From: Longimicrobiales bacterium
GTDB taxonomy: Bacteria; Gemmatimonadota; Gemmatimonadetes; Longimicrobiales; Gaopeijiaceae
Direction of reading: 5' to 3'
Assembly (NCBI GenBank): GCA_951828585.1
Contig: OX639991.1
Coordinates: 4,384,001 to 4,448,000, forward strand
DNA length: 64,000 nucleotides
Position 1 is the first letter of the stretch; the number at the start of each line of letters is the position of its first letter. The notes under the pieces are model-generated. The model had not been told where the DNA came from, searched no databases, and was given only the letters and a program-made list of their open reading frames with translations. The position numbers and the translations under genes were made by a program. This document shows, piece by piece, positions 54,906-64,000 of this stretch.

Positions 54906-55745
54906 TCAGCCCGGCGACTCGCGGACGCCCCCCGGTCCCGGGACCGCCGCCGCCCGGTCCGTGGCGCCCGCCCAATCCCGGATGATCCGGTGCAGCGCGG
55001 CCACCCCGTCGGTCAGCGCGGCGGGACCGGGCTGCAGGATCAGCGACGACTTGACCTCGTGGACCCGGCCGTGCGCGACGGCGGGAATCGCCCCCCAGCC
55101 GTCGCGCCCGGCCACCCGCTCGGGCCGGAACTTGCGGCCGCACCAGGAGCCGATGATCAGGTCGGGGGCGCGGCGCACCACTTCGCCCGGATCCGCGATG
55201 ATGCGGTCCTTCGCGAGTGATCCGGCGCGGAATTCGGGAAAGCAGTCTTCGCCCCCCGCGAGTTCGATCAACTCGGACACCCAGCGGATCCCCGAGATCA
55301 GCGGGTCGTACCACTCCTCGAAGTAGACGCGGGGCCGGCGTGGGAGCCTGGCGGCGCGCTCGCGGATGCTGTCCAGCCCGGCCTCGAGCTCCGCGGCCAG
55401 CCGTTCCCCCTTTCCCGCGCACCCGGCCAGCGCGGCCACCGCCTTGACCGTACGCAAAATCCCGGCCACGGATCGGTGGTTGAAGATGTGGACCTCGACG
55501 CCGTGGCGGATCAGTTTGGCCGCGATGTCGGCCTGGATGTCCGAGAAGCCGAGCGCGAGGTCGGGCTTCAGTTCCAGGATGCGGTCGATCTTCGCGGTCA
55601 GGAAGGCCGAGACCTTCGGCTTCTCCTTGCGGGCCCGCGGTGGCCGCACGGTGAAGCCGGATATGCCGACAATGCGGTCCTCCTCGCCGATGCGGTAGAG
55701 GATCTCGGTCGGCTCCTCGGTCAGGCAGACGATGCGCTCGTACAC
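54906..55745 (-). CDS. BtuF-like cobalamin/metal-chelate binding protein without signal peptide
   Basis: A 279-residue protein of the type III periplasmic binding fold. VYERIVCLTEEPTEILYRIG is the start of lobe 1. PDLALGFSDIQADIAAKL, FNHRSVAGILRTVKAVAAL and VYFEEWYDPLISGIRWVSELIELAGGEDCFPE are typical of cobalamin-binding BtuF-like proteins. No signal peptide or lipobox precedes the domain; the frame starts with GTG at 55745. It could be cytoplasmic, or the true exported start may have been lost. No ABC transporter genes lie nearby. It follows the S10 peptidase by 29 bases. Confidence 0.8.
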   Translation of the reverse strand: MYERIVCLTEEPTEILYRIGEEDRIVGISGFTVRPPRARKEKPKVSAFLTAKIDRILELKPDLALGFSDIQADIAAKLIRHGVEVHIFNHRSVAGILRTVKAVAALAGCAGKGERLAAELEAGLDSIRERAARLPRRPRVYFEEWYDPLISGIRWVSELIELAGGEDCFPEFRAGSLAKDRIIADPGEVVRRAPDLIIGSWCGRKFRPERVAGRDGWGAIPAVAHGRVHEVKSSLILQPGPAALTDGVAALHRIIRDWAGATDRAAAVPGPGGVRESPG

Positions 55746-55774
55746 GGGGGTCCGTGGTTGTCCGGCCAGCCGTC

Positions 55775-57313
55775 CTACTGCGACACCGGCCTCGACCCGC
55801 CCGCCGTCCGCAGGATGAACCGGTCGAGCACCTCCTTCCACTGCGGCAGCAGCGACTGCTCGACGTACATCATGTGTCCGGCGGCGAAGTCGGCGCGTTC
55901 GATGTTGTCGCGCAGTTCGGGGGCCAGTCCCATGCGATCCATCGTCCAGACGGCGGCGAAGTAGGGGGTTGCGAGGTCGTAGATGCCGTTGATGAGGAGG
56001 ACCTCGAGGCTCGGGTTGCGCTTCATGGCGGTGGCCAGGTCGGGGGCGACGTTGGGTGTGCCGCCGCCGCGGACGAAGGAGCCGCCGCCGCCGAGACGGC
56101 CCCAGTTCCAGTCGCGGGTGCCACCGCTTGGGACGTACTCGCGATCGCCGTCGTAGCCGAGTTCGTCGCGGAGGTAGCTGTTGAAGGCGGAGGTGTAGGC
56201 GGAGCTGATCGCGGTGGATTGGGGGTCGTGGGAGGGACGGGCGCCGAGGATGTCGCCCGCGGGGCCGGTGAAGCGGGAGTCGAGGCGGCCGACGATGGTG
56301 CCGTGGTCGCGAAGCAGTTCGGCCTCGAAGGCGGGGGCGGTGACGCGCAGATCGGACTTGTCGATGAAGTCGTGGCTGAGCCCGGTGTAGCGGTGCATTT
56401 GGTCGATGACGCGGGTGCGGGTGTCGGGGTCGAGGGTGCCGCCCGCGAGCAGAGCGGTGGCGTACTCGGTGAGCGACCACTCCTCCACTTCGGCCATGAA
56501 GGCCTCGAGGTCGGGGGGATTCGGGCCCGGCAGTGCGTCGAGGTAGCGGGCGGTGATGGCGTAGGAGGGGAGATTGACGATGTAGGGGAGGTCGTCGCCG
56601 GGCGCGAACTGGATGGTGTTGAACTGGAGCACGGCCGACACCAGGACGATGCCGTTGAGGTCGATGTTGGCGCCCTGGAGGTGGCGGGCGAGGACCGCCG
56701 CGCGGGTCGTTCCGTAGCTCTCGCCGAGGAGGTAGCGCGGGGAGTTCCAGCGGTCGTGTTCGCTCAGGAAGCGGCGGATGAACTGCGTCAGCGAGCGCGC
56801 GTCCTCGTCGATGCCCCAATAGTCGGAGCCGGGGGTGTCGCCGATGGTGTGGCTGAACCCGGTCCCGATGGGGTCCACCATGACGATGTCGGCGATGTCG
56901 AGAATGGTGTGGGCGTTGTCCTCGAGTGGGTACGGAGGGGCGCCCTGCGGGCCCACTTCGGGGGTGACCACCCGGCGCGGGCCCATGATCCCCATGTGCA
57001 GCCAGAAGGATGCCGAACCCGGGCCTCCGTTGAAGGCGAAGACGAGGGGGCGGTCGCGCGACGGGGCGCCGTTGGTGCGGAAGTAGGCGGTGTACCAGAG
57101 TTGGGCGGCAGGGTCGCCGTCGTCGTTGTTGAGGGTGATGCCGGAGACGGTGGCGTTGTAGTGGACCGGCTCGTCGCCGATGGTGATGGAGTGGCTGGTC
57201 TCCCAGCGCGGCGGGACGGAATTCGGGGCGGGGTCCTGGGCCCGGGCGGGAGCAGTCGCGAGCGACGCCGAGGCGAGCGCGATCAGGAAAGCCGGGGAGC
57301 GGCATGTCTTCAC
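55775..57313 (-). CDS. Exported S10 serine carboxypeptidase
   Basis: A 512-residue exported enzyme (signal about 1-25, ending APARAQ). Oxyanion motif NGGPGS (95-100). Catalytic Ser199 in GESYGTT. The acid lies in NGIYDLATPY and the His in AADFAAGHMMYVEQSL. It removes single C-terminal residues from peptides, often at acidic pH. It complements the DPP-IV and S9 enzymes nearby that work from the N-terminus or internally. The start is fixed by a clean signal peptide. Confidence 0.93.
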   Translation of the reverse strand: MKTCRSPAFLIALASASLATAPARAQDPAPNSVPPRWETSHSITIGDEPVHYNATVSGITLNNDDGDPAAQLWYTAYFRTNGAPSRDRPLVFAFNGGPGSASFWLHMGIMGPRRVVTPEVGPQGAPPYPLEDNAHTILDIADIVMVDPIGTGFSHTIGDTPGSDYWGIDEDARSLTQFIRRFLSEHDRWNSPRYLLGESYGTTRAAVLARHLQGANIDLNGIVLVSAVLQFNTIQFAPGDDLPYIVNLPSYAITARYLDALPGPNPPDLEAFMAEVEEWSLTEYATALLAGGTLDPDTRTRVIDQMHRYTGLSHDFIDKSDLRVTAPAFEAELLRDHGTIVGRLDSRFTGPAGDILGARPSHDPQSTAISSAYTSAFNSYLRDELGYDGDREYVPSGGTRDWNWGRLGGGGSFVRGGGTPNVAPDLATAMKRNPSLEVLLINGIYDLATPYFAAVWTMDRMGLAPELRDNIERADFAAGHMMYVEQSLLPQWKEVLDRFILRTAGGSRPVSQ

Positions 57314-58059: not shown

Positions 58060-61000
58060 ATGCGGACTCTCGTCTTCGCCGCCGCCCTGCTGACGCCCGC
58101 CGGAGCCTTCGCCCAGGATTCGGAAGAGGACCCGAAGTCCCCCCTCCCCCTTTCCCCCGACCGCACCCTCGCGATCGACATGACGGTCGGCTCGTGGATC
58201 TCGCTGGACGTCAGCCCCGACGGCCGGACCATCGTCTTCGACCACCTGGGCAACCTGTTCACCGTCCCCATCGCCGGCGGCGACGCCACCCAGCTCACCT
58301 CCGGCATGGCCTTCGACGCGCAGCCGCGCTTCTCGCCCGACGGCACCCGCATCGTCTTCACCTCGGACAGGAGCGGCGGCCAGAACGTCTGGATCATGTC
58401 GCTCGACGGCACGGACACCGTCCAGGTCACCAAAGGCGCCAGCAACCGTACCGAGTCGCCCGACTGGTCCCCCGACGGCGACTACATCGTCGCTTCCAAG
58501 GGCGGTTTCCGCGGCGGCGGCCTCCCCAAGCTCTCCCTCTACCACGTGGACGGCGGTTCCGGCGTACAACTGATCGGCGAACCCGACAACCTGAAGACCC
58601 TCGGCGCCGCCTTCGACCCCAGCGGCCGCTCCATCTGGTACGCCCGGCGCAACAGCGACTGGACCTACAACGCCCAGTTCCCCCAGTACCAGCTCGCCGT
58701 CTACGACCGCGACACCGGCGAAAACTACACCCGCACCTCGCGTTACGGCTCCGGCGTCCGCCCCACCCTCTCGCCCGATGGACGCTGGCTCGTCTACGGC
58801 ACCCGCCACGATTTCCACACGGGCCTCCGCATCCGCGACCTCGAGTCCGGCGACGAGCGCTGGCTCGCCTACCCCGTCCAGCACGACGACCAGGAGTCGC
58901 GCGCCACCCTCGATGTGCTTCCGGGCATGTCCTTCACCCCCGATTCGCGCCACCTGGTGGCCAGCTACGGCGGGAAGATCTGGAAGCTGGACATCGTCGA
59001 CGGCGGCGCCGAGGAGATCCCCTTCCGGGTGCAGTACGATCTCGAACTCGGCCCCCTGGTCGAATTCGACTACCCCATCGAGGACACCCCGACCTTCACC
59101 GTCCGCCAGATCCGCGACGCGGTCCCCTCGCCCGACGGTTCGCGCATCGCCTTCACCGCGCTCGACCGGCTGTGGGTGGCGAACGCCGACGGCACCGAAC
59201 CGCGCCGCCTGACGGACGCCGAGCACTCCGAGCACTATCCGGCGTGGTCGCCCGGCGGCGACCGGATCGCCTACGCCACCTGGGACGGCGAGGCGGGTCA
59301 TCTCTACAAGGTTCGCGCGGATGGCAGCGGGTCGCCCGTGCGGCTGACCGAGCGCGGCGCGGTCTACATCACCCCGGCGTGGTCCCCGGCGGGTGACAGG
59401 ATCGTCGCGCTCCGCAGCTACGCGCGCGACTTCCAGGAATCGGCCGGCGGGTTCGGCTCGGGCGCGCCCCAACCGGGCGAGATCGTGTGGGTGGCCGACG
59501 GGGACGGTCCCGGCGCGGCCACGCTGATTGCGCCGGTGGCGGGCCGCCGAGGTCCCCATTTCGCGGAGGACGCGGGGGCCAGCGGCCCGATCGCCGACCG
59601 CATCTACATGCAGCGAAGCGACATGCTCGTCTCGATTCGTTGGGACGGCACCGACGAGCGCGAACACGTGCGCATCCGCGGCCGCACCCCACCCGGGAGC
59701 CAGGCCGCGCTCACGCCGTCCGTCCTGCGCATGGCCCCCCGGGGCGACCTGGTCATGGCGCTCATCCAGCAGCAGGTGTACACCGCCACCGTGCCTATGG
59801 TGGGCGGCGAGGCCCCGCTCATCAACGTGGGCAATCCCGGCGGCGCCCAGATGCCGGCGCGGCAGCTCACGGACATGGGCGGCGAGTTCCCCGCGTGGGC
59901 CGCGAACGGGCGCGCCGTGCACTGGTCGCTGGGTCGCGCCTTCTTCACCTACGACCTGGACGCGGCGGAGGCCTTCGAGGAGGCGGCGGAGGCGGAGGCG
60001 GAGGCCGAGGAAGAATCAGAGGAGTCCGACGAAGAAGAGGACGAACCCGAATACCAGCCCGCCGAAGTCCGGATCGACATCCAGGCCACCCGCGACATCC
60101 CGGGCGGAACCGCCCTGCTGCGCGGCGCACGGGTCATAACCATCGCCGACGCCGGGACAATCGACCGCGCGGACATCCTGATCCGCGACAACCGTATCGC
60201 CGCCGTCGGCCCCTCCGGCTCCCTCGATGTCCCCGCCGACGCCCGCGTCTTCGATCTAGCGGGCAAGACCATCGTTCCAGGCTTCGTCGACACCCACGCC
60301 CACATGCGCCCCGCCAACAATCTCCACCGCTCCGACGTGTGGCCCTATCTGGCCAACCTGGCCTACGGCGTTACCACCACCCGCGACCCCCAGACCGGCA
60401 CCACCGACGTCCTCAGCTACGCCGACCGCGTTCGCACCGGTGAACTCGTCGGTCCGCGCGTCTACTCGACCGGCCCCGGCGTCTTCTGGCAGCACATGAT
60501 CGGCTCGGAGGACGAGGCGCGCGACATCCTGTCCAGGTATTCCGAGTACTTCGACACCAAGACGATCAAGATGTACGTCGCGGGGAACCGCCAGCAGCGC
60601 CAGTGGATCATCATCGCGGCGCGCGAGCTTGGCCTGATGCCGACCACCGAGGGATCGCTCAACATCCGCCAGAACCTGAACGAGACGATCGACGGATACC
60701 CCGGTCTGGAGCACTCGATCCCGATCTACCCGGTGTACGACGACTATGTGCAGCTTTTCGTGGCCACGCAACGCGCGTACAGCCCCACCCTGCTGGTCTC
60801 CTACGGGGGACCGTGGGCCGAGAACTACTTCTTCAGCCGCGAGAACCCGCACGACGACGCCAAGCTGCGCCGTTTCGTGCCGCATTCGGTGATCGACGGG
60901 GGGACGCTGCGCCGTGCACAATGGTTCCGCGACGAAGAGCACGTCTTCGCGGACCACGCCCTGTTCGTGAAGGACCTGGTGGAGGCGGGGGGACGGGCGG

Positions 61001-61362
61001 GGGTGGGGAGCCACGGGCAGCTGCAGGGATTGGGGTACCACTGGGAGCTGTGGGCGATGGCGGCCGGTGGAATGGATGAACACGACGCCCTGCGCGTGGC
61101 CACGATCCTGGGCGCCGAGGCGATCGGGCTGGACGAGGACCTGGGCACGATCGAGGCCGGGAAGCTGGCCGACCTGGTGATCCTTGACGCCAACCCGCTG
61201 GACGACATCCGCAACACGAACCGCATTCACATGGTGATGATGAACGGGCGTCTCTACGACGCCGACACGCTGGCCGAGCAGTATCCGGGGGACCGGGAGG
61301 TGGCGTGGCTCTGGTGGTGGGACGACGAGCCGGCGGGGGTGCCGGGGGTGGGGGGAAACTGA
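58060..61362 (+). CDS. Exported TolB-propeller amidohydrolase
   Basis: A 1100-residue exported protein. It has a signal peptide (MRTLVFAAALLTPAGAFAQ), TolB-type WD40-like repeats (about 40-560; DAQPRFSPDGTRIVFTSDR, HYPAWSPGGDRIAYATWDG) and a highly acidic linker (about 630-670). A metal-dependent amidohydrolase domain follows (670-1080): metal His746 and His748 in GFVDTHAHMRP, Lys in TKTIKMYV, His in GVGSHGQLQ, and the C-terminal LGTIEAGKLADLVILDANPL. Such fusions are linked to imidopeptidase or dipeptide hydrolysis in this bacterial group. The next gene begins one base after its stop, so they form an operon. Confidence 0.9.
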   Translation: MRTLVFAAALLTPAGAFAQDSEEDPKSPLPLSPDRTLAIDMTVGSWISLDVSPDGRTIVFDHLGNLFTVPIAGGDATQLTSGMAFDAQPRFSPDGTRIVFTSDRSGGQNVWIMSLDGTDTVQVTKGASNRTESPDWSPDGDYIVASKGGFRGGGLPKLSLYHVDGGSGVQLIGEPDNLKTLGAAFDPSGRSIWYARRNSDWTYNAQFPQYQLAVYDRDTGENYTRTSRYGSGVRPTLSPDGRWLVYGTRHDFHTGLRIRDLESGDERWLAYPVQHDDQESRATLDVLPGMSFTPDSRHLVASYGGKIWKLDIVDGGAEEIPFRVQYDLELGPLVEFDYPIEDTPTFTVRQIRDAVPSPDGSRIAFTALDRLWVANADGTEPRRLTDAEHSEHYPAWSPGGDRIAYATWDGEAGHLYKVRADGSGSPVRLTERGAVYITPAWSPAGDRIVALRSYARDFQESAGGFGSGAPQPGEIVWVADGDGPGAATLIAPVAGRRGPHFAEDAGASGPIADRIYMQRSDMLVSIRWDGTDEREHVRIRGRTPPGSQAALTPSVLRMAPRGDLVMALIQQQVYTATVPMVGGEAPLINVGNPGGAQMPARQLTDMGGEFPAWAANGRAVHWSLGRAFFTYDLDAAEAFEEAAEAEAEAEEESEESDEEEDEPEYQPAEVRIDIQATRDIPGGTALLRGARVITIADAGTIDRADILIRDNRIAAVGPSGSLDVPADARVFDLAGKTIVPGFVDTHAHMRPANNLHRSDVWPYLANLAYGVTTTRDPQTGTTDVLSYADRVRTGELVGPRVYSTGPGVFWQHMIGSEDEARDILSRYSEYFDTKTIKMYVAGNRQQRQWIIIAARELGLMPTTEGSLNIRQNLNETIDGYPGLEHSIPIYPVYDDYVQLFVATQRAYSPTLLVSYGGPWAENYFFSRENPHDDAKLRRFVPHSVIDGGTLRRAQWFRDEEHVFADHALFVKDLVEAGGRAGVGSHGQLQGLGYHWELWAMAAGGMDEHDALRVATILGAEAIGLDEDLGTIEAGKLADLVILDANPLDDIRNTNRIHMVMMNGRLYDADTLAEQYPGDREVAWLWWWDDEPAGVPGVGGN

Positions 61363-61363
61363 C

Positions 61364-62758
61364 ATGTGTTACACACACTTTACACACTGGACCCGGCGCT
61401 CCTTCGTGACGGGCTCTGCCCGGGCCGCCGCCGCGTTCGCGCTCTCCCCCGCCCTGCGCGCCTTCGACCCCACCACCCCCCGTCCCCACCTCCAGATCGC
61501 CCTCGAAGCCTGGAACTGGCTCGATAGCCACCGAATCGAAACACCCTACGGCGCCACCTGGCCCGCCGACCCCACCGCCCCCGAGTCCATCGGATACACA
61601 CTATATACACATTCCCCCGGCGTCCTCCCCTTCGCCCTGGAGCTCTACCACGCCACCGGCGACCAGCAGTACCTGGACGCGGCCGCCGCCGGCGCCGACC
61701 ACCTCGCCGCCACACTGGACGCGGGCCACGCCTCGGGTCTCTACACGGGCCTGGCCGGCATCGCCTACGTGCTGGCCGAGACCTGGCGCGCGACCGGGCG
61801 GGACGAGTACCGCGCGGATGCCGTCCACGCCACCCGGGTCCTGGAGGAGGACGCGAGCACGGTGGGCGGCGGGATTGCCTGGTCGCTGGGATCGGGTGAG
61901 GAAAGCAGGGAGTCCAACGACATCATCAACGGGACCTCCGGGACGGGGCTGGGGTTGCTCTACCTGCACCGGGTGCTCGGCGAGGAGGGCGCTCTGGACG
62001 CGGCCGAGGCGGCGGGCGCGCGCCTCCTTGAAGTCGCGATCGAGGCCGACGCAGGGCTGCGCTGGGACATGTGGCCCGGCTACCCCCGCGAGATGCCCAA
62101 CTTCTCCCACGGCACCGCCGGCATCGCGTACTTCCTGGCCACGCTGCACCGGACCACCGGAGAGGACGACTTCCTCCAGGCCGCGCTGGCCGGCGCCCGC
62201 TACCTGATTTCCCAGGCCACCCTGGACGCCAACGCCACCGCCCCCGGCTACCGCGTCTTCCACTCCCGCCCCGGCGGCGAGAACCTCTACTACCTGTCCT
62301 GGTGCCACGGCCCCGTCGGAACCAACCGCCTCTTCCACCAACTCGCCGAGATCACCGGCGACGACGAATGGCGTGATTGGGTCGCGCGCGGCACCCGCGG
62401 GGTCATGTCCACGGGGATCCCCGAACAGCGCACCCCTGGTTTCTGGGACAACATCAGCCAGTGCTGCGGGACCGCCGGCGCGGCCGAGCACTTCCTGACC
62501 CTCTACCGGACCACCGGCAACGATGACTACCGCGCCTTCGTCGACCGGCTCAACGCGGATCTGGTCGGGCGCGCCACCGCCGAGGGCGACGGCCGCAAGT
62601 GGACCCAGGCCGAGCACCGCGTGCAGCCCGAGCTGCTCGTCGCGCAGACCGGTCACATGCAGGGGGCCGCCGGCGTCGGGAAGTACTTCCTGCACATGGA
62701 CGCCATGGAGGAGCGGGGCGAGGGGCCGCGGGTGGTGCTTCCGGACGATCCGTGGTGA
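61364..62758 (+). CDS. Tat-exported LanC-like protein with CCG zinc motif
   Basis: A 464-residue (alpha/alpha)6 toroid protein. The N-terminus has a twin-arginine signal: WTRRSFVTG, then ARAAAAFALSPAL. LanC repeats follow: LYTGLAGIAYVLAE, NGTSGTGLGLLYLH, and NFSHGTAGIAYFLA (His249 is at the active-site position). Zinc ligands lie in SWCHGPVG (Cys314) and SQCCGTAG (Cys367, Cys368). LanC/LANCL usually have CHG at the second site; CCG is as in the ProcM-like cyclases. LanC enzymes add Cys thiols to dehydroamino acids. No lantibiotic precursor or dehydratase is near, so the substrate is open. The ATG follows the upstream stop by one base. Confidence 0.8.
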   Translation: MCYTHFTHWTRRSFVTGSARAAAAFALSPALRAFDPTTPRPHLQIALEAWNWLDSHRIETPYGATWPADPTAPESIGYTLYTHSPGVLPFALELYHATGDQQYLDAAAAGADHLAATLDAGHASGLYTGLAGIAYVLAETWRATGRDEYRADAVHATRVLEEDASTVGGGIAWSLGSGEESRESNDIINGTSGTGLGLLYLHRVLGEEGALDAAEAAGARLLEVAIEADAGLRWDMWPGYPREMPNFSHGTAGIAYFLATLHRTTGEDDFLQAALAGARYLISQATLDANATAPGYRVFHSRPGGENLYYLSWCHGPVGTNRLFHQLAEITGDDEWRDWVARGTRGVMSTGIPEQRTPGFWDNISQCCGTAGAAEHFLTLYRTTGNDDYRAFVDRLNADLVGRATAEGDGRKWTQAEHRVQPELLVAQTGHMQGAAGVGKYFLHMDAMEERGEGPRVVLPDDPW

Positions 62759-62769
62759 CCCATAGCACC

Positions 62770-64000
62770 ATGCATCCCAACTCAAGCCGGGAACGCTCCC
62801 GCATCCTCGAACTGGAGAAGATGGCGCGGGCGCTCGACCCCGATGCGACCGAGCGCGACCGGCTCATGCGGGCGGCCCACGGCTACGCCCAACGCCTTCT
62901 GACCGAGCTTCCCGAGAGGCCGGCCTACAACCACGACAAGTCCGCGGCGGCGGAACTCCGGCAGCCACAGGCGGACGACGGGCCCCAGCCCATCGGCCAG
63001 CTGATCGAGCGGTTCGACGAGTCCGTCGTCAGGCCCGGCCTGCTTCCCTCCCACGCGGGTCACCTGGCATACATCCCGGGCGGCGGGCTCTACGCCTCGT
63101 CGCTCGCCGACTACCTGGCCGCGGTGACCAACGAGTACGCCGGCGTCCGCTTCGTGGGACCGGGATCCGTCGAGATGGAGGACCTGGTTCTCGACTGGAT
63201 GGCGGGCGTCGTCGGATTCCCCGCGAGCGCCGACGGGAACCTCGCCTCGGGCGGATCCATCGCCAGCCTGACCGCGATCGTCGCGGCACGCGAAGCGGCG
63301 GGGCTGCGGGCCCGCGACTTCGATCGCGCCGTGGTGTACGCCACCCCCCACATCCACCAGTGCCTGCCCAAGGCGATCCGGGTGGCGGGCATGGGCGAAA
63401 CCGCGCGCCGGGACATCGCCGTCGACGAGAACCTCCGCCTGTGCCCACGGTCGCTCTCCGAACTGGTCGCCGCGGATCGGGCCCAGGGGCTGCTGCCCTG
63501 GCTGGTTCTCGGCTCGGCGGGCACCGCGGACACCGGCGCGATCGATCCGCTCGACCGCATCGCCGACATCGCCGAGCGCGAACGGCTCTGGTTCCACGTC
63601 GACGCCGCGTACGGGGGCTTCTTCACGCTGCTCCCCGAATTCCGGCCCGCGCTCGCCGGCATGGAGCGGGCGGATTCCATCGTCCTCGACCCGCACAAGA
63701 GCATGTTCCTGCCGTACGGCACCGGGGCCGTCCTCGTCCGCAACCGCGACGCGCTCCAGGATGCGCACGCCTACTACGCCAGCTACCTGCAGGACACGGT
63801 CGAGTCCGAGGGCGGAGGCCGGTCCCCCGCCGCGGTGTCGCCGGAGTTGACCAAGCACTTCCGCGCGCTGCGGGTCTGGCTGCCGCTGCTCCTGCACGGC
63901 GAGGAGCCGTTTCGCGCGTGCTTGCGCGAGAAGCTCGAACTTGCGCGGTACTTCCACCGCGAGATCGGCAAGCTGGGGTTCGAGGTGGGGCCCGAACCGG
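62770..64000 (+). CDS. PLP-dependent group II amino acid decarboxylase (cut by window end)
   Basis: The visible 410 residues match aromatic-L-amino-acid/glutamate decarboxylase-type enzymes. GHLAYIPGGGLYASSLADYLAAVTN is the substrate-side loop. ASGGSIASLTAI binds phosphate, HVDAAYGGFF carries the ring-binding Asp, and the Schiff-base Lys310 is in VLDPHKSMFLPYG. It should release CO2 from an amino acid to give an amine; specificity is not readable. A GTG at 62755 overlapping the LanC-like stop (GTGA) is an alternative start and would couple the genes. The C-terminal end lies beyond the window. Confidence 0.9.
   Translation, partial: MHPNSSRERSRILELEKMARALDPDATERDRLMRAAHGYAQRLLTELPERPAYNHDKSAAAELRQPQADDGPQPIGQLIERFDESVVRPGLLPSHAGHLAYIPGGGLYASSLADYLAAVTNEYAGVRFVGPGSVEMEDLVLDWMAGVVGFPASADGNLASGGSIASLTAIVAAREAAGLRARDFDRAVVYATPHIHQCLPKAIRVAGMGETARRDIAVDENLRLCPRSLSELVAADRAQGLLPWLVLGSAGTADTGAIDPLDRIADIAERERLWFHVDAAYGGFFTLLPEFRPALAGMERADSIVLDPHKSMFLPYGTGAVLVRNRDALQDAHAYYASYLQDTVESEGGGRSPAAVSPELTKHFRALRVWLPLLLHGEEPFRACLREKLELARYFHREIGKLGFEVGPEP

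Follow-up and report, generated by a model that had tools for sequence, protein, structure and literature searches.

LanC enzymes have been studied in lanthipeptide biosynthesis and, in eukaryotes, in glutathione addition, both of which have been described as intracellular. The locus analysed here encodes a LanC-like protein that begins with an export signal, which raises the question of what a member of this family might do outside the cytoplasm. We hypothesize that it is an extracytoplasmic LanC-family zinc enzyme catalysing the addition of thiols to unsaturated acceptors, or their elimination from them, in the scavenging or detoxification of peptides or amino acids. Our estimate for this reading is just under even odds (a probability of roughly 0.48).

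A LanC-like gene with a Tat-type signal

The window, i.e., the whole 64-kb stretch of DNA that was analysed, carries an open reading frame with an ATG start that encodes 464 amino acids. The preliminary description had recognised in it a complete LanC-like protein with a Tat-type signal, and the Pfam LANC_like match, the fold model and the conservation of the twin arginine confirm this assignment. The gene and its signal region are as follows.

61364..62758, + strand: exported LanC-like protein (464 aa); Pfam LANC_like 1.1e-36; AlphaFold model with pLDDT 89.7 and LanC-family proteins as top matches
61364..61468, + strand: Tat-type signal region, residues 1–35 (MC at the start, RR at 11–12, then a hydrophobic stretch); RR invariant in 13 aligned genus orthologues; assigned by pattern and hydropathy; pLDDT below 50 for residues 1–28

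The protein begins with MCYTHFTHWTRRSFVTGSARAAAAFALSPALRA, a Tat-type signal in which M1, C2, R11 and R12 are invariant across the 13 aligned orthologues from the genus. A chance twin-arginine motif is ruled out by this invariance, and a pattern scan of the 64-kb window returned the LanC frame as its sole convincing RR-signal start. TatC is encoded in the host genome (5.4e-55); together with the conserved twin arginine and the hydrophobic stretch, this marks the protein as a predicted Tat substrate.

The n-region of the signal (61364–61402) opens with Met-Cys in all genus orthologues, often as MCxxC ahead of the twin arginines, and the same feature is seen in L071 and L100. Cysteines before a Tat motif are unusual.

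Comparison with seven orthologues gave dN/dS values of 0.22–0.32, indicating that the gene is maintained under purifying selection. It encodes the only LANC_like domain in the 4.47-Mb single-contig genome.

Fold and predicted active site

The LANC_like (PF05147) match spans residues 77–449 and scores 126.6 bits against a cut-off of 23.2; the same model is matched by all 32 members of the family alignment. Based on that alignment, AlphaFold2 predicts a toroidal folded domain of 14 helices, as in a seven-fold alpha/alpha toroid, with high confidence (mean pLDDT 89.7), preceded by a low-confidence segment of residues 1–28. The best 20 Foldseek matches of the model are all LanC, LanL, LanM, LanKC or LanCL proteins, led by CuvL (E 2e-12), GCR2 and LanCL2. 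VIA Z scores give a similar ranking, with 39.5 for CuvL, 34.6 for NisC and further LanC-family chains down to about 25, glycosidases following from about 24 downward. A family profile searched against the PDB finds CuvL, LanCL2, LanCL1 and NisC, with the HG, WCHG and CHG/CCG motifs aligned. A complete LanC toroid, as originally described, is therefore supported by the Pfam match, the 14-helix model and the first rank of LanC structures.

The motifs of the window protein are NFSHG (H249), WCHG (C314) and QCCG (C367–C368). Of the residues with acid/base side chains, only D186, H249 and H315 never vary in the 32-member alignment, and C314 and C367 are conserved in more than 90% of its members. 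We take Asp186 to be the equivalent of Asp141 in NisC. The corresponding codons are listed below.

61919..61921, + strand: Asp186, invariant acidic residue (32 of 32 alignment members)
62108..62110, + strand: His249, counterpart of LanCL1 His219; invariant in the 32-member alignment and aligned to the LanCL HG motif (role from PMC9934072)
62303..62308, + strand: Cys314-His315, first zinc cysteine and counterpart of LanCL1 His277, from the family and LanCL alignments (role from PMC9934072)
62462..62467, + strand: Cys367-Cys368 (CCG), predicted second and third zinc ligands, from the family alignments and alignment with the QCCG of CuvL

In LanCL1, zinc activates the thiol, His219 protonates the enolate and His277 stabilises it (PMC9934072). 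The three-cysteine CCG motif has been reported for ProcM-like LanM enzymes, where it is tied to a broad substrate range (PMC10783134). The catalytic-type His249 and the three cysteines of the preliminary description, with CCG in place of CHG, are all present at the positions it gave, and the remaining LanC active-site residues, D186 and H315, are there as well. C314, C367 and C368 occupy the conserved zinc-ligand positions when aligned to LanCL and CuvL, from which we infer that the protein binds zinc.

Exported toroids are often glycosidases. As a rival to the LanC assignment we considered that the protein acts on carbohydrates as an exported toroid of GH127, GH76 or epimerase-like type, in which the zinc-cysteine site would be structural or would supply the nucleophile. 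GH127 beta-L-arabinofuranosidases, toroids like those of GH146, use a zinc-bound cysteine as nucleophile; their zinc site consists of three cysteines and a glutamate, the nucleophile C417 lying beside C418 (PMC10728902). The GH127 Pfam model is also matched by 22 of the 32 family members (best 2.7e-13). However, in the window protein this match covers one helical hairpin (residues 91–153) devoid of cysteines and scores 33 bits against 127 for LANC_like, while LanC structures rank first by a clear gap and the model has 14 helices. Moreover, the family has no invariant Glu, nearly all members carry Ser or Gly, and not a Glu ligand, two residues before C314, and the family profile matched no GH127 structure in the PDB. 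There is also no GH127 chain among the 50 VIA rows listed, which is an absence from that list and not an exclusion. Score, coverage, the fold ranking and the lack of the carboxylates led us to dismiss the side matches to the GH127, GH9, GH88 and GH76 Pfam models. The preliminary description had named a glycosidase of the same toroid fold among the outcomes that would overturn it; sequence, fold and active-site residues all argue against one, and we regard it as improbable.

The cysteine ligands have few exceptions. C314 and the C367–C368 pair are missing only in L124, L126 and L127, where D186, H249 and H315 are kept; L125 has CHG. These three zinc-less relatives, a sister group from Woeseia, a gammaproteobacterium and Polyangia (L124:10001–11311, L126:6466–7737 and L127:10001–11410), read WAHG and RFGR at the corresponding motifs and carry apparent export signals. 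They may represent an exported parallel to the zinc-free cyclases of class III, to judge from their predicted signals. Since they look exported yet have no zinc cysteines, export does not require zinc chemistry, and their existence would suit a non-catalytic scaffold or binding protein of LanC fold. Such a role is very unlikely for the window protein, as D186, H249 and H315 are strictly conserved even in these three sequences, and the cysteines in nearly all others. Another homologue, L047, shows no WCHG motif in the family alignment, and its placement is unsure.

Distribution of the family

A search of 59 related genomes found 14 genus loci with the LanC gene. Thirteen of them encode full-length proteins, the window protein itself included, at 73–82% identity to it. 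All genus sequences share the MC start, the RR motif, D186, H249, C314–H315 and C367–C368. Through an in-frame deletion, the orthologue in G001 (L033 7262–8512) lacks some 45 residues that correspond to one helical hairpin; it may be inactive or misassembled. A family-level relative in G032, cut by the contig end, reads QCGG in place of QCCG.

When 395 genomes from the phylum were searched, over 20 additional orthologues (44–51% identity) turned up in other families of the class. Pattern scanning of named genomes added relatives in Gemmatimonadota, Aminicenantes and other Acidobacteriota, Verrucomicrobiota, Planctomycetota and Armatimonadota (35–59% identity outside the genus), as well as distant ones at 26–32% in Pseudomonadota, Myxococcota, Bacteroidota and Bacillota. 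Isolate names suggest that sponge metagenome projects are the source of several of the closest named contigs.

The distribution is patchy, and the gene has been lost also inside the genus. In G012, a remnant comprising the last ~23 codons (EEYLDAVEQRGEGPRVVFPDDPW) stands before the PLP decarboxylase gene, behind an unrelated inserted gene (L027 1485–1570; G012:C81 ~167125–167210).

Predicted export is conserved, the route is not

Export signals were judged by the RR motif, by hydrophobic stretch and hydropathy and by the lipobox, taking each N-terminus from the homologue's own open reading frame. About 51 homologues of the exported branch have a judgeable N-terminus, and all look exported. RR (Tat) signals are found in 35 Gemmatimonadota sequences and one from Acidobacteriota, L047 having a lipobox in addition; in L070 and L076 the RR sits upstream of the automatically chosen start. 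The 15 others have signals of Sec or lipoprotein type (e.g., LVLSVVSC in L105, GIAAGC in L101 and MKQLTAALLLLAALQPVAS in L102), three of these calls (L109, L115 and L117) being short or uncertain in their start codon. Such signals are seen in the other Acidobacteriota/Aminicenantes, Verrucomicrobiota, Planctomycetota and Armatimonadota. No signal is present in distant cousins from Actinomycetota and Bacillota, namely the stand-alone proteins of Streptomyces and Mesobacillus (L144–L146) and a LanC-like protein of Lachnospiraceae. The gene of the latter (L123:10001–12324) lies directly ahead of a cysteine-synthase-like gene.

On the LanC tree, Tat and Sec labels need five changes each (at least three and two of them forced by starred branches) and export is otherwise constant; part of this tree is unresolved, several of its long branches are flagged and it does not place the origin of export. 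The conserved trait thus appears to be export, with a route that was probably switched several times. A changing route with a constant destination is expected if the extracytoplasmic location matters. All complete relatives identified, in five phyla or more, carry an export signal, so the reaction is probably an extracytoplasmic one.

The Tat signal that had drawn attention to the window protein therefore holds for all 14 genus loci and for all Gemmatimonadota homologues examined, but is not a rule of the family, nearly all relatives elsewhere using Sec or lipoprotein signals. Export in a pre-folded state, part of the initial proposal, is accordingly no requirement, since those routes serve outside Gemmatimonadota.

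Operon and genomic neighbourhood

The LanC gene is flanked by two genes on the same strand.

58060..61362, + strand: TolB-propeller/amidohydrolase fusion that opens the operon and has a Sec-type signal (PD40, Amidohydro_1, Amidohydro_3); separated from LanC by 1 bp in 9 of 12 genus loci
62755..64000, continuing past the window end to ~64278, + strand: group II PLP-dependent decarboxylase, in which we saw no export signal (Pyridoxal_deC 3.1e-55; full frame in L032)

The TGA stop codon of the amidohydrolase gene (61360–61362) lies 1 bp ahead of the LanC ATG, and the decarboxylase frame begins with a GTG at 62755, so that it shares 4 bp (GTGA) with the end of the LanC gene. The 1-bp gap is kept in 9 of the 12 genus loci that retain the first gene, and a possible start with the 4-bp overlap is found downstream in nearly all. 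The operon order in the genus is TolB-amidohydrolase, LanC, PLP decarboxylase and an NCS2 permease (Xan_ur_permease).

Of the 14 genomes with LanC, 12 have an orthologue of the TolB-amidohydrolase (at least 84%), as against none of the nine without LanC; these counts come from related genomes and so are not independent, and the enzyme type is numerous (11 matches in the window genome). G013 and G020 have LanC and lack this amidohydrolase, and the decarboxylase is retained in six of the nine genomes without LanC, both of which weaken the trio as a strict functional unit. The suggested operon holds within the genus, where its genes may share a pathway; conservation of the trio is confined to the genus.

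Outside it, gene order around LanC varies, but the neighbours repeatedly include PLP enzymes, M19 dipeptidases and exported amidohydrolases. Three genomes (f4) have an Amidohydro_3 enzyme and a PLP enzyme of threonine-dehydratase type beside LanC. In G179 and G191 the neighbour is a PLP decarboxylase with 33–38% identity to that of the window, too low for it to be accepted as a clear orthologue. An M19 dipeptidase adjoins LanC in G110 and in G149, where it is the only copy. Genomes contain 3–4 decarboxylases and 1–14 M19 enzymes; given these low copy numbers, adjacency of LanC to decarboxylases or M19 genes by chance appears unlikely, roughly one in a thousand by our own estimate, made without a formal test.

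The only M19 membrane dipeptidase of the window genome (G000:C1:4453711–4454862) is located ~7 kb downstream of LanC, after the NCS2 permease and outside the window; its genus orthologues have a lipoprotein-like signal. A serine carboxypeptidase of S10 type with a signal peptide (55775–57313, − strand) is divergent from the operon, and beside it lies a gene (~54906–55750, − strand) whose product, assigned by eye, resembles BtuF-like proteins that bind vitamin B12.

The LanC proteins known so far are cyclases. Many of the unclassified ones may represent new RiPP classes, as has been suspected (PMC7268733). The window protein might accordingly be the cyclase of an unrecognised exported RiPP, closing thioether rings once a dehydrated precursor has been secreted. 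However, the genome has no second LanC domain, hence no LanM, LanKC or LanL of the usual architecture, and the neighbours are catabolic enzymes rather than transporters or proteases of RiPP type. The Ser/Thr/Cys-rich precursor peptide that the preliminary description proposed to look for did not materialise, no Cys-rich, precursor-like small frame being found in the intergenic gaps of 54000–70000. A search for LanB by PF04738 gave no match, its control being likewise silent, so that a LanB may still be encoded. With neither a fused synthetase nor a precursor-like frame, a lanthipeptide cluster at this locus was rejected, and an exported RiPP cyclase is in our view the least probable of the explanations considered.

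The same neighbourhood bears on the direction of the reaction. A zinc thiolate enzyme of LanC type might work mainly in reverse, removing thioethers by retro-Michael elimination, or act on environmental electrophiles, with extracytoplasmic detoxification or scavenging rather than peptide modification as its role. Retro-Michael activity of LanC enzymes has been reported (PMC9934072), the neighbours are catabolic, M19 dipeptidases adjoin LanC in G149 and G110 or lie nearby, as in the window genome, and neither a fused synthetase nor a precursor was found. The association with these neighbours is nevertheless modest and mostly limited to the genus, and we consider a predominantly reverse or detoxifying enzyme possible, if rather unlikely.

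Thiol partner and proposed reaction

A role in forming glutathione adducts had also been suggested. Neither of the glutamate-cysteine ligase families GCS2 and Glu_cys_ligase had a match in the host genome, in searches whose controls worked, whereas BshC (bacillithiol) is present. In addition, the glutathione contacts His274 and His323 of LanCL1 are replaced by Ser312 and Cys368 in the window protein. Taken together, these findings make glutathione an unlikely partner in this host.

Returning to the extracytoplasmic zinc enzyme that we favour, we envisage the following course. The protein would be exported in a folded state by Tat in Gemmatimonadota and by Sec or lipoprotein routes elsewhere. 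A zinc ion, presumably held by C314, C367 and C368, would activate the thiol of a Cys-containing peptide or of a small thiol. Thia-Michael chemistry could then follow, either conjugate addition of the thiol to an alpha,beta-unsaturated acceptor, e.g., a dehydroalanine or dehydrobutyrine residue, or the reverse elimination, with H249 as the probable proton donor/acceptor and H315 steadying the enolate. It may form part of a scavenging or detoxification route for peptides or amino acids, to which exported amidohydrolases or dipeptidases would also contribute, as would a PLP amino-acid enzyme in the cytoplasm.

Relation to known LanC systems and implications

The best match in both structure and sequence is CuvL, the cyclase domain of a class IV LanL enzyme (PDB 8car/8cav), with which the QCCG and HG motifs align. 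That domain is part of a trifunctional synthetase with fused dehydration modules, whereas the window protein stands alone and has a Tat signal. The eukaryotic LanCL1 and LanCL2, which add thiols to dehydroamino acids, are likewise stand-alone toroids, and their His219, His277 and zinc ligands have counterparts here; unlike the window protein, they have CHG, no export signal and the glutathione contacts His274/His323. LanM enzymes of ProcM type (the CCG group) share the three-cysteine zinc motif, but the window protein has an export signal and neither a dehydratase domain nor a precursor peptide. The Streptomyces and Mesobacillus proteins L144–L146, annotated as 'lanthionine synthetase LanC family protein', combine CCG and WCHG-type motifs at 31–38% identity and differ in having no export signal. 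For the zinc-less L124, L126 and L127 the parallel is the zinc-free cyclase domain of class III LanKC; the latter belongs to a multidomain synthetase, while these relatives stand alone with apparent export signals.

Stand-alone LanC proteins outside any lanthipeptide context have been counted earlier, with 3,052 of 12,705 left unclassified (PMC7268733), and orphan LanC genes were listed as early as 2010 (PMC3091789). We found no description of an exported or Tat-dependent LanC protein in the open-access literature searched. We tentatively propose, with somewhat less confidence than for the window gene, that these proteins form a widespread, unrecognised extracytoplasmic branch of LanC enzymes. 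Its members would add or eliminate thiols in a periplasmic route for dehydroamino-acid or thioether peptides, together with exported dipeptidases and amidohydrolases, and in Pseudomonadota and Myxococcota a sister branch, likewise exported but free of zinc, may perform related chemistry. Stand-alone LanC proteins are left unclassified by context-based genome mining (PMC7268733), so such a group may have been overlooked. If the proposal is correct, enzymatic thiol-Michael chemistry would be a general function of the cell envelope, with a new class of substrates to be found.
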